Source of the DNA: Accumulibacter sp.
Lineage (GTDB): Bacteria; Pseudomonadota; Gammaproteobacteria; Burkholderiales; Rhodocyclaceae
Reading direction: 5' to 3'
DNA length: 64,000 nt
NCBI GenBank assembly: GCA_024235715.1
Contig: JACKLW010000010.1
Span: 62,001-126,000, forward strand
The translations under genes were made by a program, and so were the position numbers. Of the stretch, positions 34,551-60,756 are shown piece after piece; positions within the stretch are counted from its first letter, which is position 1, and each line of letters starts with the position of its first letter. Under the pieces are notes generated by a model that was given only the letters and a program-made list of their open reading frames with translations, did no database searches and was not told the DNA's origin.

Positions 34551-36938
34551 ATGTCAGAAAACACACAAGGTTTTCCATCCTGGTACGAAGAACGCCACGG
34601 CTATCAGCCGTTTCCGTGGCAGACGTCACTGGCCAAGCGAATCGCCGCGGGGGATTGGCCGGAAGCGCTCACACCGCCCACCGGTAGCGGCAAGACCGCC
34701 GTGATCGACATTTGGTTATGGGCGCGCCAACAAGGACATCGCGTTCCAAGACGACTGGTATACGTGATCGACCGTCGCCTGGTCGTTGACGGCGTCACTG
34801 CATACGCGACCGCCCTCGCCGCCAGCCTCGACGAGCACGAGCGGCCCGCCGTTGTCACCATGCGCGGTGGCATGACCGTAGACGATGTGTGGCTCGTTGA
34901 TCCTTTGCGCCTCGCCGTCATCGTCTCCACGGTCGATCAAGTGGGCTCCAGGCTGCTGTTCAGCGGGTACGGGATCAGTCCGAAGGCTGCCTCCATTCAT
35001 GCCGGGCTGCTCGGCAACGATGCCCTCTTCGTCGTCGATGAGGTTCATCTGGTTCGGCCGCTGCTGCAGACTCTGGACAGCATCGCTACCCAGCGCGGAG
35101 GCGCCCTGTCATTGCCTTGGCATGTGCTACCGATGTCCGCCACCTGGACAGGCGCCAATACCCACGGACTCACCGACGCCGATTGGGCGCATCCTGTACT
35201 GTCGCGAAGGCTCAAGGCCGCCAAGCCCGCACGGCTGATCAAGCTGCCAGCCGACGGCACCGACTTCCCCCGCACGTTAGCCGACGAGGCGCTGAAACTC
35301 CGCCAAGAAGGTGCCGGAGTAGTCGCCGTCGTGTGTAACCGCGTCGACCGAGCACGGGCAGTATTCGAGCACCTGAGAAGCCATGGCGAGGCAGTACTCC
35401 TGACCGGCCGCATACGCCCCTCCGACAAGGCGGCCTTGACACAAGAATACCTTCCAAGAATGGCCGTCGGAAGTCGCGGGCACCGCGACCCGCTCTTCGT
35501 CGTCGCAACACAGACCATCGAGGTGGGCGCGGACCTGGATATGGACGCCCTGGTTACCGAGTGTGCGCCGCTCTCCGCCCTTCTCCAACGAGCGGGGCGC
35601 CTCAACCGCCTGGGAGAACTGGCGAGCGCGTCGATGGTGATCGTCTACCAGACGCCGTTGATGAAATCCGACCCCATCTACGGCGAGGACATGGAACGAA
35701 CCTGGAAATGGCTCAACGCAGTGGCGGCGGGTAATCCGAAGACCGTCGACTTCGGCATCGGTGCAATGATGCACCTAATGGCCCAGCAGCAGCCCCCACA
35801 GGAAGACGAGCAGGAGGCGCCGGTCTTATTGCCCGCTCACGTCGACATGCTGTCGCAGACGTCTATACGCCATGGCATCAACGTTGCGCCCTGGCTGCAC
35901 GGCTGGAAATCCGGCTCGGCGGACGTTTTCCTATGCTGGCGTGCCGACCTTTCGAAGGTGTCCGTCGAGGCGGCGCCACCGGCCCAACAGGAACTGTTGG
36001 CAGTGCCCCTCTATGCGCTGCACCGCTGGAGCGCTGAGATCGCCGACATCGAAGGCGGCGAATCGATGAGGCGCACCCATGGCAAGGGTCGCGAGTGTAT
36101 CCGGTGGGATGGCGAGGAAGCACTGGAGATCAACACCGGCGCGGCGCGGGCCGGGGATACTCTTGTGCTTCCGGTCACTGCAGGAGGCGCCGACCAGTAC
36201 GGCTGGGCGCCGCGCTCCACAGTAGCGGTCACCGACGTCGGCGACACGGTGAGGCGTGTTCGACTGCATCCGGCTGTCCATCCCGAATTGGCAGACGAGA
36301 TTCGTGCGCTGCTCGGCGATGAGGATGCCGACGCCCTTGCTTGGCAAGACCTGGCGAGTCGAACCGACGTGCTTGACGGTGAACCAGGGCGAGTCCTGGC
36401 TTATCCAGGCGGCTGTCTGGTCTTGCGCGCGACAGAGTCGACCAGTCAGAGTGCGGTGCGCAAGGTGGCTCTCCGGGATCATCAACAGGCGGTCGGCGCG
36501 CGCGCTGCGACCCTGGCGCAGGGTAGCGGGCTGGGCCATGAGCTAGTCGAGGCAGTGCGGCGGGCAGGCGCCGGGCACGACACCGGCAAGCAGGATCGCC
36601 GCTGGCAGGCGATGGTCGGCGGCGACGGGTCGCTGCTGCTCGCGAAAGGCCCCGGCGGCGACACCCGCTGGATCAGTCTTCCGCGTGGTTGGCGACACGA
36701 AATGGCGTCGGCCGTTCACCAACACGACCCGCTGGTGCGGTACCTGGTAGGTAGCCACCATGGCCATGGCAGACCAATGCTGCCTGCGGCACCCGATATC
36801 GCTCTCTGGCGACAACTGGACGGCTGGGCAGAGTCTGCTGCCGAGTTGCAGGAGACCTACGGTCCTTGGGGCCTGGCCTATCTGGAGGCGCTGGTGCGGC
36901 TCGCGGATTGGAGCGTGAGCGCGGAGGAACAGGCGTGA
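34551..36938 (+). CDS. cas3: type I-G Cas3 helicase with C-terminal HD nuclease
   Basis: 795 residues. The helicase comes first: Walker A PPTGSGKTA (about residue 44), DEVH box VVDEVHLV (about 163), motif III PMSATW and motif VI QRAGRLNRLG. The HD nuclease is at the C-terminus (GHDTGKQDRRWQ, RHEMAS and VGSHHGHGRPM), the reverse of the order in most type I Cas3 proteins but normal for the GSU0051/Cas3u type. It unwinds and degrades target DNA recruited by Cascade. The stop overlaps the next gene by four bases (GTGA). Confidence 0.93.
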   Translation: MSENTQGFPSWYEERHGYQPFPWQTSLAKRIAAGDWPEALTPPTGSGKTAVIDIWLWARQQGHRVPRRLVYVIDRRLVVDGVTAYATALAASLDEHERPAVVTMRGGMTVDDVWLVDPLRLAVIVSTVDQVGSRLLFSGYGISPKAASIHAGLLGNDALFVVDEVHLVRPLLQTLDSIATQRGGALSLPWHVLPMSATWTGANTHGLTDADWAHPVLSRRLKAAKPARLIKLPADGTDFPRTLADEALKLRQEGAGVVAVVCNRVDRARAVFEHLRSHGEAVLLTGRIRPSDKAALTQEYLPRMAVGSRGHRDPLFVVATQTIEVGADLDMDALVTECAPLSALLQRAGRLNRLGELASASMVIVYQTPLMKSDPIYGEDMERTWKWLNAVAAGNPKTVDFGIGAMMHLMAQQQPPQEDEQEAPVLLPAHVDMLSQTSIRHGINVAPWLHGWKSGSADVFLCWRADLSKVSVEAAPPAQQELLAVPLYALHRWSAEIADIEGGESMRRTHGKGRECIRWDGEEALEINTGAARAGDTLVLPVTAGGADQYGWAPRSTVAVTDVGDTVRRVRLHPAVHPELADEIRALLGDEDADALAWQDLASRTDVLDGEPGRVLAYPGGCLVLRATESTSQSAVRKVALRDHQQAVGARAATLAQGSGLGHELVEAVRRAGAGHDTGKQDRRWQAMVGGDGSLLLAKGPGGDTRWISLPRGWRHEMASAVHQHDPLVRYLVGSHHGHGRPMLPAAPDIALWRQLDGWAESAAELQETYGPWGLAYLEALVRLADWSVSAEEQA

Positions 36939-37798
36939 AGCTCACCGCATTGCGACCGAACAACCCCGTTGCGGTCATGGCCGCCTACGGGGCTCTGCGC
37001 CTGTTGCCTGGCGCAAGGCTGCGCTGGGATGGCCCCTGCCCGGAGTTGGAGTGGAAAGGCGACGTGATTGACCAACTCGCCGGACGCCTCCAGGAGCGGC
37101 TCACAGCGCCGGAAGTGAACTTGATCGACGACGCACGTGCGATCGATGGAGCGGCGGCCTACCGGCAACTTGGCGACCATATGCCTAGCGAGTGGCTGAT
37201 CGCATATGCTGCTGAGACGTCTACGGGGCTCAACCGAAAGGGTCTGCGGTTGCTCGGGGGACCACACCAGTTCATTGCCAACGCGCGCAGGATCATGGAA
37301 TCACTTCTCAAGAAGGACGTCCGCCGGAAGCTCCAAGAAGGCTTGCTTGGTCCTTGGCGCTACGAGGACAAGGGCCTGCAGGCCTGGGGCTGGGATGCGG
37401 CTGCCAGAATCGACGCGGCAGCGGTCCCCATGAACGTTAGTTCGGCAGACAAATTCGGTGTCCTGGGGGCCTACTGGCTGGCATGGGAGTCTCTCCCGTT
37501 CTGGCCAATGGTCAACGGATACACAGTAGGCATGGCGAAACATTACTGGGTCTACCCGACCTGTGCCGAATGGCTCGGCGCAGGCGGATTGCGTGCGCTG
37601 ATCCTAGGCGCGGCGGGACTGCATGACCGAGAAGCACAAGCGCTGGGTGTAACTCGGTGGCGCTCCGAGAAGATCGTCAGTGGAAAAATGGGCGCGGTAC
37701 TGGGTTGGGCACTGCCCGTTCCCGCGCGAACCCCTAGTGGCCGAGGAAACACTGGGAGGTTCGCGCGCGTGGAAAGCCACGCAGGATCAATCGATTGA
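36935..37798 (+). CDS. putative type I-G Cas8-like subunit (GSU0052-like)
   Basis: 287 residues from the GTG at 36935, overlapping the cas3 stop. The N-terminus VKLTALRPNNPVAVMAAYGALRLL and the motif LRWDGPCPELEW are typical of a small protein that follows cas3 in type I-G loci and is treated as a divergent large subunit (Cas8u2) or a Cas3-extension family. No larger Csx17/Cas8 gene is present, so this is the best candidate for PAM recognition in the complex. Assignment is by position and weak family resemblance. Confidence 0.65.
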   Translation: MKLTALRPNNPVAVMAAYGALRLLPGARLRWDGPCPELEWKGDVIDQLAGRLQERLTAPEVNLIDDARAIDGAAAYRQLGDHMPSEWLIAYAAETSTGLNRKGLRLLGGPHQFIANARRIMESLLKKDVRRKLQEGLLGPWRYEDKGLQAWGWDAAARIDAAAVPMNVSSADKFGVLGAYWLAWESLPFWPMVNGYTVGMAKHYWVYPTCAEWLGAGGLRALILGAAGLHDREAQALGVTRWRSEKIVSGKMGAVLGWALPVPARTPSGRGNTGRFARVESHAGSID

Positions 37799-37900
37799 GG
37801 CCGATGGAACCGCTAGACTTCCGTTGCGCGTACGTACGCCGGACAGGTTCGCGCGAAAGCGCCGGTTTTGGCTATGGAATCAGGCAGCTGAAGAGGAGCC
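37799..37900 (+). promoter_or_regulatory. probable CRISPR leader
   Basis: About 100 bases between the last cas gene and the first repeat. They contain the perfect 12-base palindrome GCGTACGTACGC at 37828-37839. The leader side is deduced from the degenerate repeat at the other end of the array. Confidence 0.5.
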
Positions 37901-38366
37901 GCCGCATCTCGCCCTTCGGGGCGGGCTTCGTTGAAGGTTCGGCCTTGTGCATGGCGCGATCGCTGTGCGGCAGCCGCATCTCGCCCTTCGGGGCGGGCTT
38001 CGTTGAAGGGCCGTTGAAACGGAAGCCCGCATCGACCTCACCAGGCCGCATCTCGCCCTTCGGGGCGGGCTTCGTTGAAGGCAGGGCGACCACGCCAACG
38101 CGCAGAAGGTCGAGCGCCGCATCTCGCCCTTCGGGGCGGGCTTCGTTGAAGGTTGACCACCCACGCGGCGGCGAAGCCGTCGGCGCGCCGCATCTCGCCC
38201 TTCGGGGCGGGCTTCGTTGAAGGCGCTGAGACGTGAAACCGCGTGCCGCGGGTGCAGGCCGCATCTCGCCCTTCGGGGCGGGCTTCGTTGAAAGTCATCG
38301 CGCAGATGGTCGGCCTCCTTGATCTGCGCTATCGTATCCCGCCCGTCGGGGTAGGCTTCGGTTCAG
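37901..38366 (+). CRISPR. CRISPR array, seven repeats and six spacers (type I-G)
   Basis: Repeats of 36 bases start at 37901, 37973, 38045, 38116, 38187, 38258 and 38331, with spacers of 35-37 bases. Repeats 1-5 are identical, beginning GCCGCATCTCG and ending GGGCTTCGTTGAAG. Repeat 6 has an A at its last base, and the terminal repeat at 38331 is strongly diverged, marking the trailer end. The centre CGCCC-TTCG-GGGCG can form a five-base-pair hairpin with a UUCG loop. It is transcribed forward, directly downstream of the cas genes. Confidence 0.97.
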
Positions 38367-38620: not shown

Positions 38621-38710
<90 letters not shown>

Positions 38711-38891
38711 GACGGGGCGCAATGTTAGCACAAGATGTGCCAGGCAAAAGCGCTGGCGGCAAGATTCTTCGGGGCAATCGCATGAATCTCATGCAACACC
38801 GAACAGTTCGGCACTGAAGGTGTCGGCGACTGCCTGCGCCAGCAATTTCCACGAGATCGTGCCCGACTTTCGCGGACAGCGCGGGGCAGAC

Positions 38892-38938: not shown

Positions 38939-40144
38939 TCAGGGCTTCCAGTCGTGCAGGTCGCAGACCGCCTTGTCGCCCGGCATCATCCCCTTTGGCC
39001 CATTCTTGCCGACGGCCGGCCGGCACAGGCGAGTGCTCTGCTCGTTGTCCTGCGCGGTCGAACGTGCCCAGACGGTGACCAGGCCGGAGTTCTCGATGGT
39101 CTGATTGCAGCCGTCGATGGCGTAGAAGGCATGGATGGCGTTACGTTCGAAGTAGGTCAGCCACTCCTTGTCCGGGTCCTGGTTGGCGAACCATTTCTTC
39201 CATTTTCCCTGGGAGCCGTCGACGGCCACCTGCCAGCCCTTTTCCTTCCGCTCCTGCGTGAACTGGTCACTGTCCCAGTGCATGACCATGTACTTGTTCT
39301 GGTCGATGCACTGCGGCTTGGTCAAGGTCATGTAGATCTCCTGCGGATGGTGATAGTGGAAAGGGTAGGAGGTGTTGAAGAGCTGCACGGTCATGCCGAT
39401 CTCGGCGCCGACCTTCTCGCCGTCGATCTCCTTGATGCGCAGGTTGCCCCACGGACCCATCAGCTCGGCATAGAGATAGCCGCCGCGGAAACGGTCGCTG
39501 CCTGCCGCCGGATTCTCCGCGTAGAACGGTATCCAGCCCACCGACGACCACAGTGTCGGCAGACCGTTGATGCTGATGTCCCGTTTCCAGTGCGGCCTGG
39601 TGTCGGTGCGCGCGGCGACCGCGACGAAGTTCTCGTTGAGTTCCATTCCCGCCGTGCCGATTGCCCCGCCCATTTTCGCGTAATAGTCGGTCAGCAAGGG
39701 GCGATTGAGCCATTGCGCTGTCGCCGACAGCTTCTGCACCGACGCACCGGGCGTGTAGAGCGCGAAGGCTGGATAGTCTTTCTGCGGATCGAAGCAGGCT
39801 TTCGCCTTCTCCGGCTCGGCGACGACTGCCTTGAGATGCTTGGCCAGCAGTTCGATGTCGCGATAGCGCATGATGCAGCGGCTCTGCTGTTTGCCGGTTG
39901 CCGATTGATACGTCTGGATAGTGGCCTCGGCGGAATCCAGGCATTGGCCGCTGGGCGTCTGCAGCACCTTGAGGTACTCGTCGAGATAGATCAGTGACTC
40001 GTTCCAGAACGCGTCAACCAGTTTCTGCTCTTCGCTACTGTACTGTTTTTGCTGCACATCGTCCTGACACTTGAACTCCGCTGCCAGCGCCGACGAGCAC
40101 GCCAACGTCGTCGCCACCGCAAAAACCGTGATTTGCTTGCGCAT
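38939..40144 (-). CDS. dddY: periplasmic DMSP lyase, DddY-like
   Basis: 401 residues with a Sec signal peptide ([20 protein letters not shown], cleavage near AAEF). A C-terminal cupin carries [14 protein letters not shown], in which His263, His265, Glu269 and Tyr271 fall at the same numbers as the zinc ligands and catalytic Tyr I recall for DddY, and His338 (RNAIHAF) supplies the remaining ligand. DddY cleaves dimethylsulfoniopropionate to acrylate and dimethyl sulfide in the periplasm. The ATG has GGAG eight bases upstream. It lies 77 bases downstream of acuI on the same strand, whose product disposes of acryloyl-CoA. Related cupin proteins of unknown substrate remain an alternative. Confidence 0.85.
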
Positions 40145-40221: not shown

Positions 40222-40710
40222 TCAGCGATTTACATCGACGACCACGCGACCGCGCACCTTGCCTTCAAGCAGCTGGCTGGCGACCGGAATGGCTTCGTCA
40301 AGGCCAATCTCGTTGGTGATCAGGCCGAGCTTCGCAAGGTCCAGATCGAGGCCCAGGCGCTGCCATGCCAGCAGGCGATCGGGACGCGGACACATGACGC
40401 TATCGACACCGGCCAGCGTCACGCCGCGCAGGATGAAAGGTGCGACGCTGGACGGGAAATCCATGCCGCCGGCCAGACCACAGGCGGCCACCACGCCACG
40501 GTAGCTGGTCGTCGCGCAGACGTTGGCCAGGGTATGGCTGCCGACCACATCGACCGCACCTGCCCAGCGTTCCCGGCCCAGAGGCTTGCCCGGTGACGAA
40601 AAGAGCGAACGATCGAGTACCTCGGTGGCGCCCAGCCGTTTGACGTAATCGCCCTCCTCCGGCCGACCGCTGACGCCAACCACCGTGTAGCCGAGTCTGG
40701 ACAATACGGA
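40222..40710 (-). CDS. acuI: acuI exon 2 (C-terminal part of acryloyl-CoA reductase)
   Basis: This is the 3' part of acuI, encoding 162 residues from SVLSRLGYTVVGVSGRPEE to GRVVVDVNR and a TGA. It contains the second half of the nucleotide-binding domain and the C-terminal catalytic fold of the YhdH/AcuI family (ACGLAGGMDFPSSVAPFILRGVTLAGVDSV). The frame continues exactly from exon 1 if bases 40711-42548 are removed. Without splicing this part would not be made from the acuI start. Confidence 0.9.
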   Translation of the reverse strand, partial: SVLSRLGYTVVGVSGRPEEGDYVKRLGATEVLDRSLFSSPGKPLGRERWAGAVDVVGSHTLANVCATTSYRGVVAACGLAGGMDFPSSVAPFILRGVTLAGVDSVMCPRPDRLLAWQRLGLDLDLAKLGLITNEIGLDEAIPVASQLLEGKVRGRVVVDVNR

Positions 40711-42548
40711 ATCGGGATAGGGGCAGTCAGTTTCCGGACCGACCCCTCCCACACCACCCGGCATGCGGGTCCGCACCGGGCGGTTCGAGAAGTTGAGGTC
40801 ATGAAAGCCGTGGTACGCCGAGTCGGTCAAAGTAGGCGATGGGCATGAGCCTGTTCAACTCAAGCCGGCTGTTGTGCCACCAGCGAGTGGTATTGCCCGC
40901 CACCCTCGCTGCTTGGTCTGAACTTGCACCCAATGTCCGCAATTCCCGATAGATCGTCGTTCCCCGTCGCCAGTGCTTGAGCTGCAAAGCACGCAGGCGG
41001 TGTCGCAGCCATTCGTCCAGTCCACGAAAGACCCCGGGCGTCTGCGCCAATTGGAAATAGGCTTTCCAACCGGGCATGTAACGCCGCAGTTCTTGCGCAA
41101 CTTCGTCGAGGCTGCGTCCGCACGTCCGGCGAGTGATTTGCCGAATGCGCTGCTTGAAGGTGTCGATGGCCTTGGTTGCCACTGAACGCTTAACCTCACC
41201 CCCTGCGGCACGCCACAGAGCAAAACCGAGGAACTTGCGGCCGGTCGCGCGAGCAACAGCAGTCTTGGTTTCATTCACCTTCAAGTGAAGTCGGTCGTAG
41301 AGTTTTCGCAGTCCGTCCAGCACTCGTTCGCCGGCTTTCCGACTGCGCACATAGACATTGCAGTCGTCAGCATAGCGCACGAACCGATGGCCACGTCGCT
41401 CCAGTTCCCGATCCACTTCGTCCAGCAACACGTTGGCCAGAAGCGGCGATAGCGGTCCGCCTTGCGGGGTGCCCTCGTATCGCTCCATGACCACGCCGCC
41501 GTCCATGATGCCCGCCGCAAGGTATCGCCGAATCAGCCGAAGTACGGCTTTGTCGTCGATCCGCTTGGCTAGCCGATCCATGAGTACGTCGTGATTGACC
41601 CGATCAAAGAACTTTTCCAAATCAACATCCACCACCACCTTCCAGCCTGCTTGCACATGGCACTGCGCTTGTCGCACCGCATCATGCGCACGTCGGCCCG
41701 GTCGAAAGCCGTAGCTGTGTTCGGAGAACGTCGGATCGATCAGGGGTTGCAGAACTTGCAGCAGGGCTTGCTGGATAAGCCGATCGATCACGGTGGGTAT
41801 CCCCAGCTCCCGCATCCCGCCCCCAGATTTGGGTATCTGCACCCGGCGTACCGGCCGTGGCCGATAGCGTCCCGTTTGCAGGTCTTCCCTGATCCGGAGC
41901 CAGTGCGTCTTGAGATACTCAGTCGTGGCTTCGATCGTCAGTCCATCTACCCCAGCACTACCGCGATTGGCCTTGACGCGTTTCCACGCCATGGCCATAT
42001 TCCCTCTCGCGAGCGCCTGCGTCAGCAGGTCGTCTCGCCCCAAGCCTTCGCTCCCTTGTCCCGCCAGCCGTACTTCATCGCGTCCGATTCCCGGCAAGGC
42101 TTCACCCGGCCCGCTTTCGGTTCGCCCCGGTTGCCCAGGCTTCTGATGCACTGCACGTCCAAGAGACATGGTTGTCGGCTTTCCTTCTCGTTCGGCCCTT
42201 CACTCCACGCAGGCAGCTACTACGGCCTCTGCTGACTCCTCGCTCCGCGTTTCCGCGTCGACCTTTCAGCCATGAGGCGAGGTCTCCCCAGGTAAGAACG
42301 CGATCCTTCCCCGCACAGCCGCCAGATTTACGCCGCCTGAGCCTTGGCCACGAGAGCTTCGCGGATCGTTGCCCGCTCGCCCTGCTCGGCTGCGCCTCGT
42401 ATCTGGTTCTTGTCCATCGGCTCGCGGTTTCGCTCCACGCTTCCTCCCCACACTCGGTCGCCCTCGTGCAGTTGCGCTTCACTTCGTTTGCTGTGGCCAA
42501 CTTACGGGAGGACTTCCACCTCCAAGATCGCGCCCATGCTGGGCGCAC
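40711..42548 (-). mobile_element. group II intron inserted in acuI
   Basis: An 1838-base element on the minus strand. It begins GTGCGCCCAGC, matching the GUGYG start of group II introns, and ends in CCCTATCCCGAT. Upstream of the end, GCCCGGTGCGGACCCGCATGCCGGGT lies in the position expected for domain V (seen at about 40748-40790 on the plus strand). The reverse transcriptase gene is inside. Excision joins GTCGCCGTT to TCCGTATTGTCC, restoring the reading frame and the family sequence [16 protein letters not shown]. Confidence 0.88.
40799..42169 (-). CDS. ltrA: group II intron reverse transcriptase/maturase (LtrA type)
   Basis: 456 residues. The RT domain has RT0-RT7 motifs including [58 protein letters not shown], the [11 protein letters not shown] block, [15 protein letters not shown], the catalytic RYADDCNVY and FLGF. 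The maturase (X) domain follows ([26 protein letters not shown]). No HNH endonuclease is present at the C-terminus. It would splice and mobilise its host intron, and it appears intact. Confidence 0.95.
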
Positions 42549-43043
42549 AACGGCGACGCTGCCGACACCGCCGGCAGCGCCGGTAACCAGAATTTCGCCC
42601 CTGTCCGGCGTCACACCGTGGCGTTCGAGGGCGAGGACGCAGAGCATCGCGGTGTAACCGGCGGTGCCGATGGCCATCGCCTGTTGCGGTGTGAATTGCA
42701 CCGGTAGCGGTACCAGCCAGTCACCGTTGAGGCGGGCTTTCTGCGCCAGGCCGCCCCAGTGCACTTCGCCGACACCCCAGCCGTTGAGTACGACGGAGTC
42801 ACCGGGCTTGTACGCCGAGTGGCTGCTCGCCTCGACAGTACCGACCAGATCGACGCCTGGAACCATCGGGAACCTGCGAACCACCGGGCCCTTGCCGGTA
42901 ATGGCGAGACCGTCCTTGTAGTTGAGAGTCGAATGACTCACCCGGACGGTCACGTCGCCATCGGGCAGCTGGGCGTCATCGATTTCGCGCACTGCCGCCC
43001 GATAACCCGCCTCGTCCTTCTCGATCAGAATCCCTTTGAACAT
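42549..43043 (-). CDS. acuI: acuI exon 1 (N-terminal part of acryloyl-CoA reductase)
   Basis: 165 codons from the ATG at 43043, preceded by AAGGAG, up to the intron. The sequence [45 protein letters not shown] and [11 protein letters not shown] is the N-terminal GroES-like domain and cofactor site of the AcuI/YhdH MDR family, which reduces acryloyl-CoA to propionyl-CoA with NADPH. Spliced, the gene encodes 327 residues, the usual family length. The unspliced frame instead runs into the intron and ends as a 313-residue chimera. Confidence 0.92.
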
Positions 43044-43061: not shown

Positions 43062-43091
43062 GTATTAGACCATTCGTCTAATATTTGACAA
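43062..43091 (-). promoter_or_regulatory. sigma70-type promoter of acuI
   Basis: On the minus strand, TTGTCA (43086-43091) and TAATAC (43062-43067) are separated by 18 bases, ending 18 bases before the acuI ATG. The palindrome at 43064-43082 fills the spacer and overlaps the -10 element. Confidence 0.65.
43064..43082. promoter_or_regulatory. operator 1 in the acuI promoter
   Basis: ATTAGACCATTCGTCTAAT is a perfect palindrome with seven-base arms and a five-base centre. The TAGAC...GTCTA form resembles operators of NemR/AcuR-like TetR repressors. No such regulator gene lies next to it in this window. Confidence 0.6.
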
Positions 43092-43197
43092 GGAAAAACG
43101 GCGCGATAGCACGCCGGATTGCGCAGAAACGCTTCCTCAGGAACCGATCAGCGCCGGCCGGACGGCCGGAAGCAATATCAGAGTCCGTGGAAACGAT

Positions 43198-43216
43198 ATT
43201 AGACTACTTGTCTATT
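43198..43216. promoter_or_regulatory. operator 2 upstream of acuI
   Basis: ATTAGACTACTTGTCTATT repeats operator 1 with one arm mismatch, 134 bases upstream of it. The rest of the 43044-43365 interval holds no supported gene. Two copies suggest cooperative or looping repression, or control of a second promoter. Confidence 0.5.
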
Positions 43217-43365
43217 AATTGCAAGCCGACGGGAGTCAGGGCCATCGCATGCATCTCATGCAAGGCCCAGGCGTCGCGCGCGGAAGGTATCGACAGTGGC
43301 GCCGATCAGGTGCCGACGCTCGCCGGCTTCGAGAAAATGCTGGCCGCACTCGCGGCCGAACCTCC

Positions 43366-44658
<1,293 letters not shown>

Positions 44659-47523: not shown

Positions 47524-48921
47524 TCAGGAAAGCGGCTGGTGGGCGTCGAGAACCGACTGTTCGAGATCGGTGAAGGCTTCGCTGACATAGAGACCCAAAC
47601 GCTCGAGGTTCGGCAGTTCGTCGGTGGCGATCAGGCCGAAGAAGAGCTGACCGGCATAGCTGAACAGCGTGATGTTGAGCAGGTTGCCGGCCGGCAGCGT
47701 ACTGATCGGATGCAGTTCCTCCATTCTCGCGCCCTTGATGTACAGGAACTCGGGCGGACCGGGGATGTTCGATACCAGGGTGTTTCCGATCGGCGGCAGG
47801 CGTTCGCTGAGACCCAGCATTTCGGCAAGTTGCGCCACCACCCCGGTGATCAGCGTGTAGGACTCGATGGCGTCGGGCGCGACGCTGTCGATCATCGAGC
47901 GCACATTGCGCAGCGAAAAACCGATGTTGCGCAGGCGCACGTAAGGGTCGTCCGTTGGCGGCGAGAGTTCGACCTGGATGATGCCGATCTTGTTGCCGGT
48001 GCCGTGTTCGCCTTCCCTGCGCAGGTTGACCGGCATCTGGATGGTAATCGGCCTTTTCAGATCGACGCCCTCATCCTGCAGATAGTGGTGCAGAGCGCCG
48101 TCGAGGCAGGTCAGCGCGACGTGATTCAGGGTCGACCGCGTCCTGGCACAAATCAGCTTGACCCGCGCCATGCTCACGCTGGCCGTCGCAAACTGGCGAC
48201 CCGCGGTCACCTGCCCGGTCAGCGGCGTGTTCCCGTCAGCGACGAAGGGCAGCGATATGGCGTTCTTGGTCAACCTGGCGCCTTCGAGGGCCAGCATCGC
48301 GGCCAGGCGAGCAATTCCCAGCAGGCGCGTGCCGGCACCCGAGAGATCAGCGAGCAGCGATTGGGTCATCTTCTCCCTGGCCTGCTTCGCCTTGCCGTCT
48401 GCGCGACCATGGCGAACCGACCACAGCGGCCGCAATCTCAGGTCAGTCGCTGTCGACGCCAGCGACTCCGCCGCCCAGCGCACCATCGTCACGCCGTCGG
48501 CACTGGCATGATGCATCTTGACGTACAGCGCGAAACGGCGTTCGCTCAGACCGTCGATGACGTGCACTTCCCAGAGCGGGCGAGCACGGTCGAGCATCGG
48601 TTGATGCAGCGCCGAAACCAGGCGGTAGAGATCCTGCCGCCGGTTTTTTCCCCGGCGCAGCTTGTGGTAGAAGAGATGCTCTTCGAGGTCCACCGATGCA
48701 ACCTCTTCCCAGGTCGGCATCCCGGTCAGCGAGAAGTGGATGACACGGTTGAACGGCGACGCGACGTCAGTGACGCCAAGCAGATCCTGGTACAGATCGG
48801 CCGCGAAGGCGGCTGGCGACCTGGCTGGCCGTTTGTAGATCATCAACCCGCCGACATGTTTCGGGCTGGCCTCCGACTCGGCGATGAAGAACGCCAGATC
48901 GAGCAAGGACAGTTTGTTCAT
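47524..48921 (-). CDS. wax ester synthase/diacylglycerol acyltransferase (WS/DGAT)
   Basis: 465 residues from the ATG at 48921 (GAGG six bases upstream). The N-terminal catalytic motif HHxxxDG is KMHHASADGVTMV (about residue 137). The C-terminal half contains NHVALTCLDGALHHYL, PVNLRREGEHGTGNKIG and GNTLVSNIPGPPEFLYIKG, all WS/DGAT hallmarks. It esterifies fatty alcohols or diacylglycerol with acyl-CoA for neutral-lipid storage. It is divergent from the phasin gene, another storage-granule function. Confidence 0.92.
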   Translation of the reverse strand: MNKLSLLDLAFFIAESEASPKHVGGLMIYKRPARSPAAFAADLYQDLLGVTDVASPFNRVIHFSLTGMPTWEEVASVDLEEHLFYHKLRRGKNRRQDLYRLVSALHQPMLDRARPLWEVHVIDGLSERRFALYVKMHHASADGVTMVRWAAESLASTATDLRLRPLWSVRHGRADGKAKQAREKMTQSLLADLSGAGTRLLGIARLAAMLALEGARLTKNAISLPFVADGNTPLTGQVTAGRQFATASVSMARVKLICARTRSTLNHVALTCLDGALHHYLQDEGVDLKRPITIQMPVNLRREGEHGTGNKIGIIQVELSPPTDDPYVRLRNIGFSLRNVRSMIDSVAPDAIESYTLITGVVAQLAEMLGLSERLPPIGNTLVSNIPGPPEFLYIKGARMEELHPISTLPAGNLLNITLFSYAGQLFFGLIATDELPNLERLGLYVSEAFTDLEQSVLDAHQPLS

Positions 48922-49076
48922 CGAGACCTCAACTTCCTTCCTGTCATGCGCTGCAAAAAATGCGTAGCGGCGCCTCAGCCCAGCTGCATGTGGCGTGGGC
49001 GAGCCGAATGTCGCGCTCACTGCGTCCGATGGCCGCGTCTCCCTGGCCTGCCAAGGATAGCGCATCGCGAGACCGT

Positions 49077-56206: not shown

Positions 56207-58972
56207 TCACACCGCCGTGTCAGGCGATACCTCGACTTGCTGCGCATGTGCAAAGGGCAACGTAAAGCGAAACGTCGCCCCCTCCCCCGGTGCGCTTTCC
56301 ACCCACAGCTGGCCACCGAAGTGCTCGACGATACGCCGGCTGATCGGCAGGCCGAGGCCGGTACCAGACGGCTTGGCGGTCATCGTATCGCCTACCTGGC
56401 GAAATTTCTCGAAAACCAGCTGCTGGTCCTCCGGACGAATTCCCGGCCCGTTGTCGGCCACGCTGACTTCCAGACCGTCTGCCCGCCGCCCCAGCGTGAC
56501 GCTGATCCGGCCGCTGCCCTGTTTCAGGAACTTGACCGCGTTGGACAGCAGATTCAGCATCACCTGGATCAGACGATCGCGGTCGGCAAGGATCAGCGGT
56601 AGATTATCGGGCAGATCGACCTCGACGTGCGCCTCTTTCTCGCGCATCAGCTGGCTCGTTGCGGCAATCGACTGCTCGATGACCTCCTTGAGGTCGAGCT
56701 CGCAGCCGTTCCAGTCGGCTCTCCCAGATTCGATTTTTGCCAGATCGAGCGTCTGGTTGATGAGGCGTGTCAGACGCTCGGTCTCGCTGACGATCAGGCC
56801 GAGAAAGCGCTCGCGGTCGGGGAGGTGCATCTTCGGATCGTCGCGCAGCAGTTCCGACAAGGCGCGGATCGAGGTCAGCGGCGTACGCAGCTCGTGCGTC
56901 ACCGACGACATGATATCGTCCTTGACACGATCGAGCTCCTGCAGGCGCTCGTTGGCTGCCTGCAGTTCCAGCGTCGCCGCGGTCAGCTCGCGCGACTTGC
57001 GCTCGAGCTCGCGGCTGTAGGTGCGTAACTGCGACGCCTCGTCGAGGATATGCATCACCTCCTCGATACTCAGCGGCTCCTCCTTGGCCACCGAGGCGAC
57101 CATCACCCGCGCAGAAGCGCTGCCGATGGCCCCGGCCAGCAAGGATTCCGCGAATTGCACCAGCTTTGCGTCGGCCTCGGGCGTGACGTCGTCGCTGTTG
57201 CCACGACGACGCGCAAAGGCGGCGAAGGCCGATTGCGCCCTCGCCGGTCCGAGAAAGCGGCCAACCAGTTCCTGCAGATCGCTGACCTGCGCTCGCCCAC
57301 GCCACAGAACCGCCCCGCCCTGCCCGGTGTCTTTGAGCGCATCGACGAACAGGGTCGCTTGAGTCGCTTCGGCAACCATCGGCGGGCGCAGCAGCGACAC
57401 GCCTACATAGGCGCCGATGTTGGCGAAGAAACTCCAGAACAGACAATGCGCGATCTCGCCCATACCGGCCAGGCCGAACAGCTGCTGAGGCCTCAGCAGC
57501 TCGACGCCGAAGAAACCCTGCATGAGGAAATCACCGGGAAGCCAGCCCGATTTCGCGAACGACGGCAACAGCAAGGTATAGGTCCACACCATGAACCCTG
57601 CCGACAAACCCGCCAGGGCACCACCGCGGGTGCCGCCGCGCCAGTACATGCCGCCGATCAGGGCGGGGGCGAACTGGGCAACGGCCGAAAAGCTGATCAG
57701 CCCGATGGCGACCAGCGCGTAGGCCTCGCCCGCCAGTCGGAAGTAAAGGTAGCCGAGCAACAGGATGACCACGATGGCGCCTCTACGAATTCCGAGCAGC
57801 AGACCCGACAGGTCCTTCGATTCCTCCAGCGCTGCCCGGTTGTGGCGCAACAACATGGGCATGACGAGGTCGTTGCAGACCATGGTCGACAAGGCGATGG
57901 TCTCGACGATGACCATGCCGGTCGCCGACGACAGGCCACCGATGAAGACCAGCAAGGTCAGTCCCTCCTGGCGCTGCGACATTGGCAGGGTCAGCACGAA
58001 GGTATCTGCATCGACGCCCTGACCGGCGAAATGCAGCAGCCCGCCGACCGCGATCGGCAGGACGAAGATATTGATCAACAGGAGATAGAGCGGGAACAGC
58101 CACGCAGCACGCCTCAGGTGCGCCTCGTTGACGTTCTCGACGACAGCGACCTGGAATTGCCGCGGCAGGAAGAGAATTGCCAACCCGGACAGGACAATAA
58201 GTGAAAACCACCCGGTGTAGCCGTCGCCCGACGGAATCGCCTTCAGCAGTCCCCGCACCTCCTCGCGGACCTCGACATGATCGAAGATGTCGCCAAAGCC
58301 GTTGTACATGCCGTAGGTGACGAACACCCCGACCGCCAAGAAGGCGACAAGCTTGACAACGGACTCCATGGCGATCGCCGCCACCATTCCTTCGTGGCGT
58401 TCCGTGGCATCGAGATGCCGGGTGCCGAAAACGATGGTGAAGGCCGCCAGGATCAAGGCGATGTAGAAGCTGATGTCGGCGCCGACGGTCATCGCCGCAC
58501 TGCGATGGGGCATGACGATCTCCGGATAGCCGAGAAGCAGACCGACGGTGTTGGAGACGGCCTTGAGCTGCAGCGATATGTACGGAATGATGCCGATCAC
58601 GGCGATGATGGTCACCAGGCCACCCAGGCCATGGCTCTTGCCGTAGCGCGAGGAAATGAAGTCCGCGATCGACGTGATGCGGTTGGCCTTGACGATGCGA
58701 ATCATTTTCAGGAGCACGATCCAGCCAAGCGCCATGGCCAGCGTCGGACCGAGGTACACGGGCAGGAAGCCGATTCCCGAGACGGCGGCTCGTCCGACGC
58801 TGCCGTAGAAGGTCCAGGTCGTGCAGTAAACCGCCATCGACAACGCATAGATGGTCGGGTTGGCAATGATCGACCTCCCTTGATCGGCGCGCCGGTCACC
58901 CCACCAGGCGACCGCAAACAGCAAGCCCAGATAGAGCAGCGAGACGACGATGACTACCGGGGGCTCGAGCAT
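56207..58972 (-). CDS. sodium/solute symporter-histidine kinase (CbrA/CrbS-like)
   Basis: 921 residues. The first 500 or so form an SLC5-type sodium/solute symporter with about 13 helices (for example YCTTWTFYGSVGRAA and SIADFISSRYGKS). A linker and coiled coil (LRTYSRELERKSRELTAATLELQ) lead to a histidine kinase with H-box SSVTHELRTPLTSIR, N-box LNLLSNAVKF, G1 VADNGPGIRPEDQ and G2 GTGLGLPISRRIVEHFGG. Relatives CbrA and CrbS sense or transport substrates such as histidine or acetate and control carbon use. The ligand here is unknown. Confidence 0.94.
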   Translation of the reverse strand: MLEPPVVIVVSLLYLGLLFAVAWWGDRRADQGRSIIANPTIYALSMAVYCTTWTFYGSVGRAAVSGIGFLPVYLGPTLAMALGWIVLLKMIRIVKANRITSIADFISSRYGKSHGLGGLVTIIAVIGIIPYISLQLKAVSNTVGLLLGYPEIVMPHRSAAMTVGADISFYIALILAAFTIVFGTRHLDATERHEGMVAAIAMESVVKLVAFLAVGVFVTYGMYNGFGDIFDHVEVREEVRGLLKAIPSGDGYTGWFSLIVLSGLAILFLPRQFQVAVVENVNEAHLRRAAWLFPLYLLLINIFVLPIAVGGLLHFAGQGVDADTFVLTLPMSQRQEGLTLLVFIGGLSSATGMVIVETIALSTMVCNDLVMPMLLRHNRAALEESKDLSGLLLGIRRGAIVVILLLGYLYFRLAGEAYALVAIGLISFSAVAQFAPALIGGMYWRGGTRGGALAGLSAGFMVWTYTLLLPSFAKSGWLPGDFLMQGFFGVELLRPQQLFGLAGMGEIAHCLFWSFFANIGAYVGVSLLRPPMVAEATQATLFVDALKDTGQGGAVLWRGRAQVSDLQELVGRFLGPARAQSAFAAFARRRGNSDDVTPEADAKLVQFAESLLAGAIGSASARVMVASVAKEEPLSIEEVMHILDEASQLRTYSRELERKSRELTAATLELQAANERLQELDRVKDDIMSSVTHELRTPLTSIRALSELLRDDPKMHLPDRERFLGLIVSETERLTRLINQTLDLAKIESGRADWNGCELDLKEVIEQSIAATSQLMREKEAHVEVDLPDNLPLILADRDRLIQVMLNLLSNAVKFLKQGSGRISVTLGRRADGLEVSVADNGPGIRPEDQQLVFEKFRQVGDTMTAKPSGTGLGLPISRRIVEHFGGQLWVESAPGEGATFRFTLPFAHAQQVEVSPDTAV

Positions 58973-58981
58973 CCTTGCCGG

Positions 58982-59182
58982 CTACTTGACGAGACGTTCG
59001 ACGGACCAGGCCATCAGGCCGATCACGAAGGCCCAGGCCAGGAAGATGTAGACAAAGAGCAGAGGAACGTTGAAGACCTCCGCTGGCCGATCGAAGATCG
59101 ACAGCAGCGGGTAATTGAACAGTACACAACCGATGAAGAAGGCTGCGATCAAGCGGTCACCCGCCAAGACTCTGCGATGCAT
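58982..59182 (-). CDS. small two-helix membrane protein upstream of the symporter-kinase
   Basis: 66 residues from the ATG at 59182, which has GGAGG just upstream. Two transmembrane helices are evident (LIAAFFIGCVLFNYPLLSIF and FNVPLLFVYIFLAWAFVIGL). It ends nine bases before the kinase start, so the two are co-translated. Its size and place resemble CbrX, the small protein preceding cbrA in Pseudomonas; this equivalence is inferred from position. Confidence 0.75.
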   Translation of the reverse strand: MHRRVLAGDRLIAAFFIGCVLFNYPLLSIFDRPAEVFNVPLLFVYIFLAWAFVIGLMAWSVERLVK

Positions 59183-59309
59183 CTCACCCTCCCGCCTCGA
59201 AAGGACCTGGTACGGAAACCGCTTCGCCCGGCCAATGCGCCCCCGCGAGCCATTGTCGATGGGCGGCGGCCATGCTGCCCGCCGTCGATTTCGTCGAGGA
59301 ACTTGCCGC

Positions 59310-59915
59310 ATGATCCGCCCCGCTCTCGACTGGCAGCGACGCGCCGCCAGCAAGACCTACTGCGGCATTCGTCACGATTTCGCCAAAGGCATGCCCACAT
59401 TGTCATCAATCGCCCCGAGCCGCGCAATGCCTTTCGGCTGGAAAGCTTTGGCCATCTGCTCGACGCCACCCACCAGGCGCAGTTTGACGCCGGCGTCGGG
59501 GTGATCGTCCTCAAGGACGCCGGGCAGGAAGCGTTCTGCTCTGGCGGCGATCCGACCGCGCGTGGCGACGATGACGGCTGTCACGATGAATCGGGTGTGC
59601 CGCAGCTCGACGTGCTCGACCTGCAGATGCAGATTCGCCGCTGCCCGGAACCGGTGGTGGCAATGGTCGCCGCTTACGCCGTCGGCGGCGGGCATGTGCT
59701 GCATCTGGTCTGCGACCTCACGATTGCCGCCGAGAATGCCCGCTCCGGACGGACCGGCCCGCGTATCGGCAGCGTCGACGCCGCCCCTGGCGCCGGCCTC
59801 ATGGCGCGTGCCGTGCGCCCCAAGCGGGCCAGGAAATCCGGCTCTTCTGCCGGCCATACGCCGCCGCGGCGGCACTGGCCATGCAGCAATGCCGAGCCGA
59901 TGACAGCGCCGGCAC
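59310..59915 (+). pseudogene. decayed menB-like enoyl-CoA hydratase/isomerase gene
   Basis: Across three frames the sequence reads like 1,4-dihydroxy-2-naphthoyl-CoA synthase or a close relative: first TYCGIRHDFAKG, then after a shift near 59390 IVINRPEPRNAF, VGVIVLKDAG, AFCSGGDPTARGDD, PVVAMVAAYAVGGGHVLHLV and CDLTIAAENA, then after a second shift near 59825 QEIRLFCRPYAAAAALAMQQ. The conserved GQTGP..GSFD region is altered to GRTGPRIGSVD. The C-terminal quarter is missing. It is not expected to give an active product. Confidence 0.8.
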
Positions 59916-59922
59916 CAGGCGA

Positions 59923-60756
59923 TCAGCCCGTCACACCGCCGGGGGCGATGCGCTGCAGGATCTGGCGCAGCTTGGCCTTGATTTGGCGGGCATTCTCGGG
60001 CCCCATGCGCATCAGGATCTTCTGACCCGCCGGGCGCCTTTCGAGCGTCGGGTCGGCGAATTCATAGCGTACCCATGGCCGCGGTGAATCGCCCGCGCCC
60101 TTCGCCAGGGGCAGGATCAACTGCACCGGTCCGCTCAGGTCGGGAGTCGCCAGCAACTGGTCGATGACTTCCACCAGGCGGTTGTTGAAATACTTGCCGG
60201 GATAGCCAAGTTCGACGTACGCCTGCTGCAGGATCGGGTACATGCGCACATACAGGGCCACCGCAGCATCGCTGTCGACGGCCGACACGAAGCGCACGAA
60301 CGCCGCGTACCGTTGCGCGTTGGCGTCGGCCATATAGCTTGCGCCATCGCGCTCGCTCACCAGGAAGCGCCCCGAAGCCGGAAGCACCGGCCACAGCCGC
60401 GAAGCGGAGTGGCCACGTGCGAGGCTGTCGACAGTTGCTACCACATGGCGCGCGAAGTCCCGCACATCAAGAAACGACAACACCTGCTGACGACCAAGCA
60501 GGTCGACCAGCGCATCGTTCACCGCGGTGCCGTTATCGGCAAGAGCTGGCAGCGGCTCCTCGGGCGGCGGCTTGATCGCCTCGATCGCGTGGTGCAGCGG
60601 CGCCGGCGGCGGAAGCGGCGCCTCGACCACCGCGAGGTCGGGAGCGGCGATCGGTGCCGGCGCCTCGCGTGGCCGGAACTGTGACCACAGGTAAACAACC
60701 GCAGCCAGCCCCAGCAGGGCCAGGCCGCCAACTAGCAAGCGCGACAAATGCTTCAT
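59923..60756 (-). CDS. DUF3014-domain membrane-anchored protein
   Basis: 277 residues. One N-terminal transmembrane helix (LLVGGLALLGLAAVVYLWSQF) is followed by a Pro/Ala-rich linker (to about residue 70) and a DUF3014 domain: LPALADNGTAVNDALVDLLGRQ, FARHVVATVDSLARGH, and YVELGYPGKYFNNRLVEVIDQLLATP. The function of the family is unknown. The stop lies just past the decayed menB-like gene. Confidence 0.88.
   Translation of the reverse strand: MKHLSRLLVGGLALLGLAAVVYLWSQFRPREAPAPIAAPDLAVVEAPLPPPAPLHHAIEAIKPPPEEPLPALADNGTAVNDALVDLLGRQQVLSFLDVRDFARHVVATVDSLARGHSASRLWPVLPASGRFLVSERDGASYMADANAQRYAAFVRFVSAVDSDAAVALYVRMYPILQQAYVELGYPGKYFNNRLVEVIDQLLATPDLSGPVQLILPLAKGAGDSPRPWVRYEFADPTLERRPAGQKILMRMGPENARQIKAKLRQILQRIAPGGVTG

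Follow-up and report, generated by a model that had tools for sequence, protein, structure and literature searches.

Does the reading frame at 38939-40144 of an Accumulibacter contig encode a genuine lyase of dimethylsulfoniopropionate (DMSP), and does the gene unit around it still work? The stretch of DNA analysed here (64 kb, hereafter the window) belongs to contig C10 of a 4.14-Mb genome, 90.5% complete and with a reported contamination of 0.33%. Read jointly, the features listed in Table 1 very probably represent a periplasmic DddY lyase, encoded in an acuI-dddY unit that is mobile within Accumulibacter and whose acuI has recently received a group IIC intron. Enzyme and gene pair are of known kinds. 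New are the host genus, the split acuI and the location between serS and tRNA-Ser, furthermore the probable loss of acuR with two operators left and the decay of the unit in two other Accumulibacter.

Table 1. Features of the acuI-dddY cassette and its flanks (window positions).
Feature	Position	Strand	Basis
serS, insertion-site flank	43366..44649	-	TIGR00414, 541.3 bits
57-nt imperfect direct repeat, serS side of cassette	43236..43292	+	repeat D2
AcuR-type operator 1 (putative), overlaps TTGCAA-n17-TAATAT hexamer pair	43197..43217	.	pattern scan
AcuR-type operator 2 (putative), overlaps TTGTCA-n18-TAATAC hexamer pair	43063..43083	.	pattern scan
acuI exon 1, codons 1-165	42549..43043	-	alignment with intact Ca. 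A. regalis acuI
Hairpin in acuI coding sequence, just before intron insertion point	42554..42582	-	folding
Group IIC intron, 1838 nt, 5' GTGCG ... 3' GAT	40711..42548	-	regalis acuI, C5 copy, Rfam RF02001 and RF01998
Intron-encoded reverse transcriptase/maturase	40799..42169	-	RVT_1 and GIIM; TIGR04416, 420.9 bits; GsI-IIC RT
acuI exon 2, codons 166-327 and stop	40222..40710	-	alignment with regalis acuI
dddY, DMSP lyase DddY, 401 aa, ATG start	38939..40144	-	NF043049, 5xkx match
Predicted Sec signal peptide of DddY, residues 1-21	40082..40144	-	read by eye
Cupin motif, residues 263-271 (H263, H265, E269, Y271)	39332..39358	-	alignment; same in 5xkx
His338 codon, distant site residue	39131..39133	-	alignment
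57-nt imperfect direct repeat, tRNA side of cassette	38769..38825	+	repeat D2
tRNA-Ser(CGA), other insertion-site flank	38621..38710	-	Rfam search

The lyase and its relatives

The first-pass annotation had proposed a DddY-like DMSP lyase with all of its catalytic residues and, as a check, a profile search against DddY. Run here, this search matches the NCBIfam DddY equivalog NF043049 over the complete protein (residues 1-401 of 401, 839.7 bits against a cut-off of 800, E = 2.7e-253), and the proposal is borne out by this match, by the solved chain 5xkx and by six site residues. Pfam DMSP_lyase is matched with 38.6 bits (cut-off 27), and the Shewanella-type DddY model of NCBIfam gives 306.7 bits, below its cut-off of 650. 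There are two strong PDB matches, a DddY sequence and the Y260A variant of it (5xkx/5xky and 5y4k/8hle, E about 1e-220); the former entries bear the label 'Uncharacterized protein' and the latter 'DMSP lyase DddY'. The chain 5xkx, presumably from Acinetobacter bereziniae, aligns gapless to residues 10-401 with 295 of 392 residues identical (75%, E = 1e-220). Y260, H263, H265, E269, Y271 and H338 are all present, in numbering identical to 5xkx, and none of the six varies among 11 aligned DddY homologues. We take them to be the cupin metal site and the tyrosine base of DddY, with individual roles that are assumed for all except Y260. The Tyr260Ala mutant of DddY was used to trap dimethylsulfoxonium propionate (DMSOP) in a co-crystal (PMC10686828).

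That the site residues come together in one site of the fold is favoured by the gapless alignment, at 75% identity, with a solved chain; an AlphaFold2 model of the protein, calculated from the 11-row alignment, has a mean pLDDT of 46.4, too low to be of use. Compared with the solved chains (5xkx, 5xky, 5y4k, 8hle) the protein possesses the same site residues in a gapless fit and differs in host lineage and in the sequence of its signal peptide. Its N-terminus is of Sec-type appearance, judged by eye. By family membership and residues, the protein is, at the level of its sequence, a DddY. The dN/dS ratio of 0.158 between dddY of the window and that of Candidatus Accumulibacter regalis, which has the nearest full-length DddY (90%), indicates purifying selection.

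Among the genomes of the genus, dddY is found in 4 of 28 including the window's own, two of the four containing only broken pieces. The family sample has it in 11 of 395 genomes (short pieces only in two of these, G500 and G655) and the order sample in one of 399, the window's own. A scan of genome contigs with DddY, a single-protein query that reaches close relatives only, yields 13 loci in three Accumulibacter (regalis, appositus and aalborgensis), Thauera, Denitromonas halophila, a Zoogloeaceae, three Rhodocyclaceae MAGs, one Competibacteraceae MAG, two Rhodospirillales MAGs and Henriciella. In nine of the 13, acuI lies immediately before dddY (L006-L010, L014-L017); it follows dddY in L011 and L012, is reduced to a remnant of 33 aa in L013, and was not found at L018. 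DddY has no match in 72,556 plasmid records, and a plasmid vehicle is therefore not supported. The four Accumulibacter rows, two being fragments, group in a tree of full-length alignment, with a fork supported at 80/98; a tree from 96 columns gave no resolution, owing to the conservation of this segment.

A DMSP lyase had also been called unexpected in a bacterium of this kind, which is correct in part. It is so for the order sample, with one genome in 399, and for the literature, in which a search that covers few subscription papers found none naming both Accumulibacter and dddY; one paper mentions dddY and a wastewater library, but apart (PMC4029986). It is less so in view of dddY in Thauera, Denitromonas, other Rhodocyclaceae, the Competibacteraceae MAG and the betaproteobacterium Alcaligenes faecalis (PMC3338564). 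The pairing with acuI is ordinary, because the unit is known from A. faecalis and also occurs in other Rhodocyclales. In A. faecalis acuI-dddY is described as co-transcribed and acrylate-inducible (PMC3338564). As in the published account of the strain M3A unit, acuI is located immediately 5' of dddY in the same direction; in contrast to it, the neighbours in the window are serS and tRNA-Ser instead of acuN, acuK, dddA, dddC, dddZ and dddR, and acuI is split by an intron (PMC3338564).

acuI and its group IIC intron

The gene acuI ends 77 nt upstream of dddY and consists of two pieces around a reverse transcriptase (Pfam and NCBIfam), with group II intron domains in between (Rfam). The pieces score 303 and 255.8 bits, each below the AcuI cut-off of 440, against 576.7 bits for acuI of Ca. 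A. regalis, where the gene is uninterrupted. The earlier claim of a pairing with acuI accordingly holds for gene order and kinship and fails for an intact acuI. In comparison with regalis acuI the intron is a clean 1838-nt gap between codons 165 and 166, in sense orientation and with both ends present. Exons joined by script result in an in-frame, stop-free 327 aa, and a spliced mRNA would encode an intact AcuI of this length. Because acuI is in two pieces around a group IIC intron, its product can exist only with intron splicing, and the split gene may simply be dead.

A second, identical 1838-nt copy of the intron in the same genome (G000:C5:904723-906560, the C5 copy) fixes the boundaries independently, and a third copy, likewise 100% identical, is present in the genome taken as Ca. 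A. regalis (G001:C39:1194-3031, L111). Since identical copies occur in both genomes and the acuI of regalis is uninterrupted, the intron appears young and mobile across species. The insertion into acuI looks recent, so that selection on the acuI exons says little. The intron is identical in regalis even though serS and six neighbouring genes have dS values of 0.52-0.72 between the two genomes, an observation that points to recent interspecies transfer of the intron. Genome G025 contains, in seven contigs, seven matches of 223 nt to the 5' end of the intron, 84-85% identical, either fragments or a small intron family.

The insertion point lies 5 nt after a hairpin of 12 pairs within acuI, the codons of which presumably specify the glycine-rich nucleotide-binding motif. 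Within the gene, just 5 of 949 positions, this one among them, attain the stability of this flank, as do only 1% of random 45-mers; of 200 shuffled sequences each, 4 fold as well as the acuI flank, none as well as that of C5 and 6 as well as the uninterrupted site of regalis. The C5 copy is situated directly 3' of a terminator-like hairpin, and terminator stems are the usual targets of group IIC introns. These introns recognise a stem-loop at the 5' exon (PMC7161350). Of 11 flanks 5' to the intron and its kin (without L115 and L120, whose 5' end is missing, and with the L118 flank taken from a 39-nt partial match, itself behind the apparent end of another intron), 9 rank roughly within the top 5% for stability when set against 2,200 random 45-mers drawn from these loci. 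The flanks of L111, the identical regalis copy (24%), and L119 (41%) are unexceptional in this control, which weakens the notion of a hairpin before every intron copy.

A group IIC retro-intron seems to have landed recently in acuI, behind a coding hairpin resembling terminator stems. With group IIC introns (GsI-IIC) the window copy shares its reverse transcriptase kinship (438.9 bits to the GsI-IIC RT versus 134.8 to LtrA, PDB), the position just past a hairpin, and an RT in which no HNH domain was found (Pfam, E 0.001); unlike them, it resides inside a conserved protein-coding gene and not behind a terminator. A search for EBS1 pairings gave several weak candidates, which were not used (best GGCGGCG at intron position 212, 7/7 pairs with acuI and 6/7 with C5).

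Location, history and operators of the cassette

In the window acuI-dddY sits between serS and tRNA-Ser(CGA). The corresponding stretch was obtained from 16 of the 27 other genomes of the genus, with one (L082, wrong side) uninformative. The junction is closed in 14 of the 15 informative relatives, with the tRNA 78 to 147 nt past serS; at L079 no tRNA was found after serS. Closed junctions include those of regalis, appositus and aalborgensis (L070, L071, L077), which carry the cassette elsewhere: regalis and appositus at a common locus close to uvrA that is syntenic on either side, and aalborgensis adjoining acuR. Two 57-nt repeats, 74% identical to each other, flank the cassette in the window, and their core, among the loci compared, is confined to those of the own genome. 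Apart from the intron, the stretch from 43225 to 38912 is homologous to the regalis cassette.

In the comparison with regalis, dddY has a dS of 0.354 and the two acuI exons have 0.31 and 0.289, while serS reaches 0.52 and six genes near it 0.58-0.72. The values for serS and its neighbours stem from a set of 13 ORFs, of which these seven are quoted; three have no counterpart in the fetched piece, the plus-strand ORFs 57050-58204 and 58277-60025 are left out as non-genes (dN at or above dS), and ORF 59923-60756 is outside the quoted range (0.976). The lower dS of the cassette is consistent with a transfer inside the genus that postdates the separation of the species, and codon bias could contribute. 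The acuI-dddY unit behaves as a mobile cassette inside Accumulibacter, with differing loci, acuR seemingly lost and decay in two members. Beyond the tRNA the window contains a Type I-G CRISPR-Cas system (34551-38365; Cas3g with 744 bits and an adjacent Cas3-extension protein), and from 37898, near tRNA-Ser, an array of about six repeat-spacer units of 71-73 nt.

Two copies of the motif TAGAC-n5-GTCTA are present in the 64-kb window, each of them upstream of acuI, and there is none in 100 shuffles. Both sites resemble the proven AcuR operator of Rhodobacter sphaeroides, TAATAGAC-n6-GTCTATTA (PMC3017554), and acuI and dddY would form one unit behind them. In the window as well as in regalis the two sites have a start-to-start spacing of 134 nt and no intervening acuR, therefore acuR has probably been lost from the cassette. 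The best AcuR match in the own genome (90.5% complete) has 36 bits against a cut-off of 247; 8 of the 28 genus genomes exceed this cut-off, including G001, G009 and G004 (taken as regalis, appositus and aalborgensis). The loci of Thauera UBA6194 (L009) and L015 possess one such operator before acuR and one before acuI. With these acuR-acuI-dddY loci the window shares the acuI-dddY order and the operator type, whereas they keep acuR; dddY of L015 is incomplete, without an inner part. In aalborgensis the site before acuI fits the pattern, that before acuR was recognised by eye alone, and no AcuR-type operator was found in L007, L008 and L016. The acuR-acuI-dddL operon of R. sphaeroides likewise has acuI upstream of the lyase gene and an inverted-repeat operator overlapping the promoter; it differs in its lyase family, and the window has two operators and no acuR (PMC3017554).

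The hexamer pairs linked to the operators derive from a looser pattern without control, and the promoters are weakly supported; a consensus promoter scan found none of these hexamers. A terminator-like hairpin with a T tail (43099-43116, minus strand) is located between the operators just before acuI, one of two such sites versus 3.9 expected by chance; it may act as an attenuator or represent what is left of the end of a lost gene.

Predicted pathway and state of the operon

Lyase activity, export, pathway, splicing and regulation are predictions from sequence. Secreted to the periplasm, DddY would eliminate dimethyl sulfide (DMS) from DMSP by means of the cupin metal site and tyrosine base of its family, leaving acrylate, and would probably also release DMSO from DMSOP. 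The acrylate would be imported, converted to acryloyl-CoA by PrpE and reduced by AcuI to propionyl-CoA, a polymer precursor in Accumulibacter. Known DddY enzymes are reported to act in the periplasm, where they split DMSP into DMS and acrylate (PMC3338564, PMC5395565).

PrpE is over cut-off in the own genome (1059.8 bits, C8:84854-86731). A second gene of the acrylyl-CoA-reductase family, 1.25 kb from prpE (C8:87983-88957), is matched by TIGR02823 with 429.3 bits against 297.25, and its protein misses the AcuI equivalog cut-off (350.9 versus 440). Because PrpE and this second gene are present, acrylate could reach propionyl-CoA even with a silent split acuI. Both genes, the latter of the YhdH/AcuI family, are close together on one strand (G000:C8:84854-88957, L040), on a contig different from that of dddY. 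In the window a protein of the WS/DGAT (wax ester/triacylglycerol synthase) family, encoded at 47524-49065 (minus strand), has 309.4 bits, just below the cut-off of 309.95, in a lineage that is polymer-storing. It is conceivable, if doubtful, that DddY would be made from every read-through transcript and AcuI only after splicing, with the repressor lost and acrylate handling set by splicing efficiency; a mobile route from DMSP to propionyl-CoA would then feed polymer storage in a phosphate-accumulating organism.

The main competitor of a working operon, a reading to which we give somewhat less than an even chance, agrees on the identity of the gene and differs on whether the operon works: a genuine DddY would be carried along in a decaying passenger, with acuI knocked out, the regulator lost and little benefit in sludge. 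The split acuI and the absence of an AcuR over cut-off point in this direction, as does the reductase-family gene at C8:87983-88957, which could cover the loss of acuI, and furthermore the state of the cassette in two relatives. In appositus (L013, 6637-7873) dddY is 34 nt longer and shifted in frame by what looks like a tandem duplication, and acuI is down to its 33-aa piece; aalborgensis retains about residues 197-376 of dddY, with acuI of full length and acuR both over cut-off. These cases rest on draft genomes, in which assembly error is possible, and the broken dddY of both species suggests weak selection for the trait. Decay is opposed by the intact dddY of the window with its dN/dS of 0.158 to regalis, by the intron lying between codons in sense orientation with both ends, and by the acuI-dddY pair of regalis, which is intact.

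To our knowledge there is no source of DMSP for the habitat, which counts against a working DMSP operon. The habitat is presumably non-marine, and a DddY-like cupin might act in freshwater or wastewater mainly on another substrate, DMSOP or some other 3-substituted propionate, the more so as DMSOP, too, is split into DMSO and acrylate by the DddY enzymes of A. faecalis and A. bereziniae (PMC10686828). Such a shift is improbable: this cleavage is less efficient and DMSP is preferred (PMC10686828), all site residues equal those of the solved DddY chain, and the linkage to acuI together with the AcuR-type operators points to acrylate as the product. A misjoin of the cassette or of an intron junction in the draft genome, suggested by the intron occurring twice at 100% identity, a classical place for such errors, and by the absence of the cassette from the serS-tRNA site of the relatives examined, is hardly credible with two in-frame halves of one gene flanking the intron, homology to the regalis cassette on both sides of it and through dddY, and a reported contamination of 0.33%.

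For the biology of the introns, the locus is a clear natural example: a group IIC intron has inserted at a hairpin within the coding sequence of a metabolic gene, and a near relative has both the uninterrupted gene and the identical intron elsewhere. A DMSP lyase gene is carried by the Competibacteraceae MAG as well. With a DMSP lyase in this model polyphosphate-accumulating genus, DMSP could be turned by wastewater biomass into DMS, which is an odorant and a climate-relevant gas.
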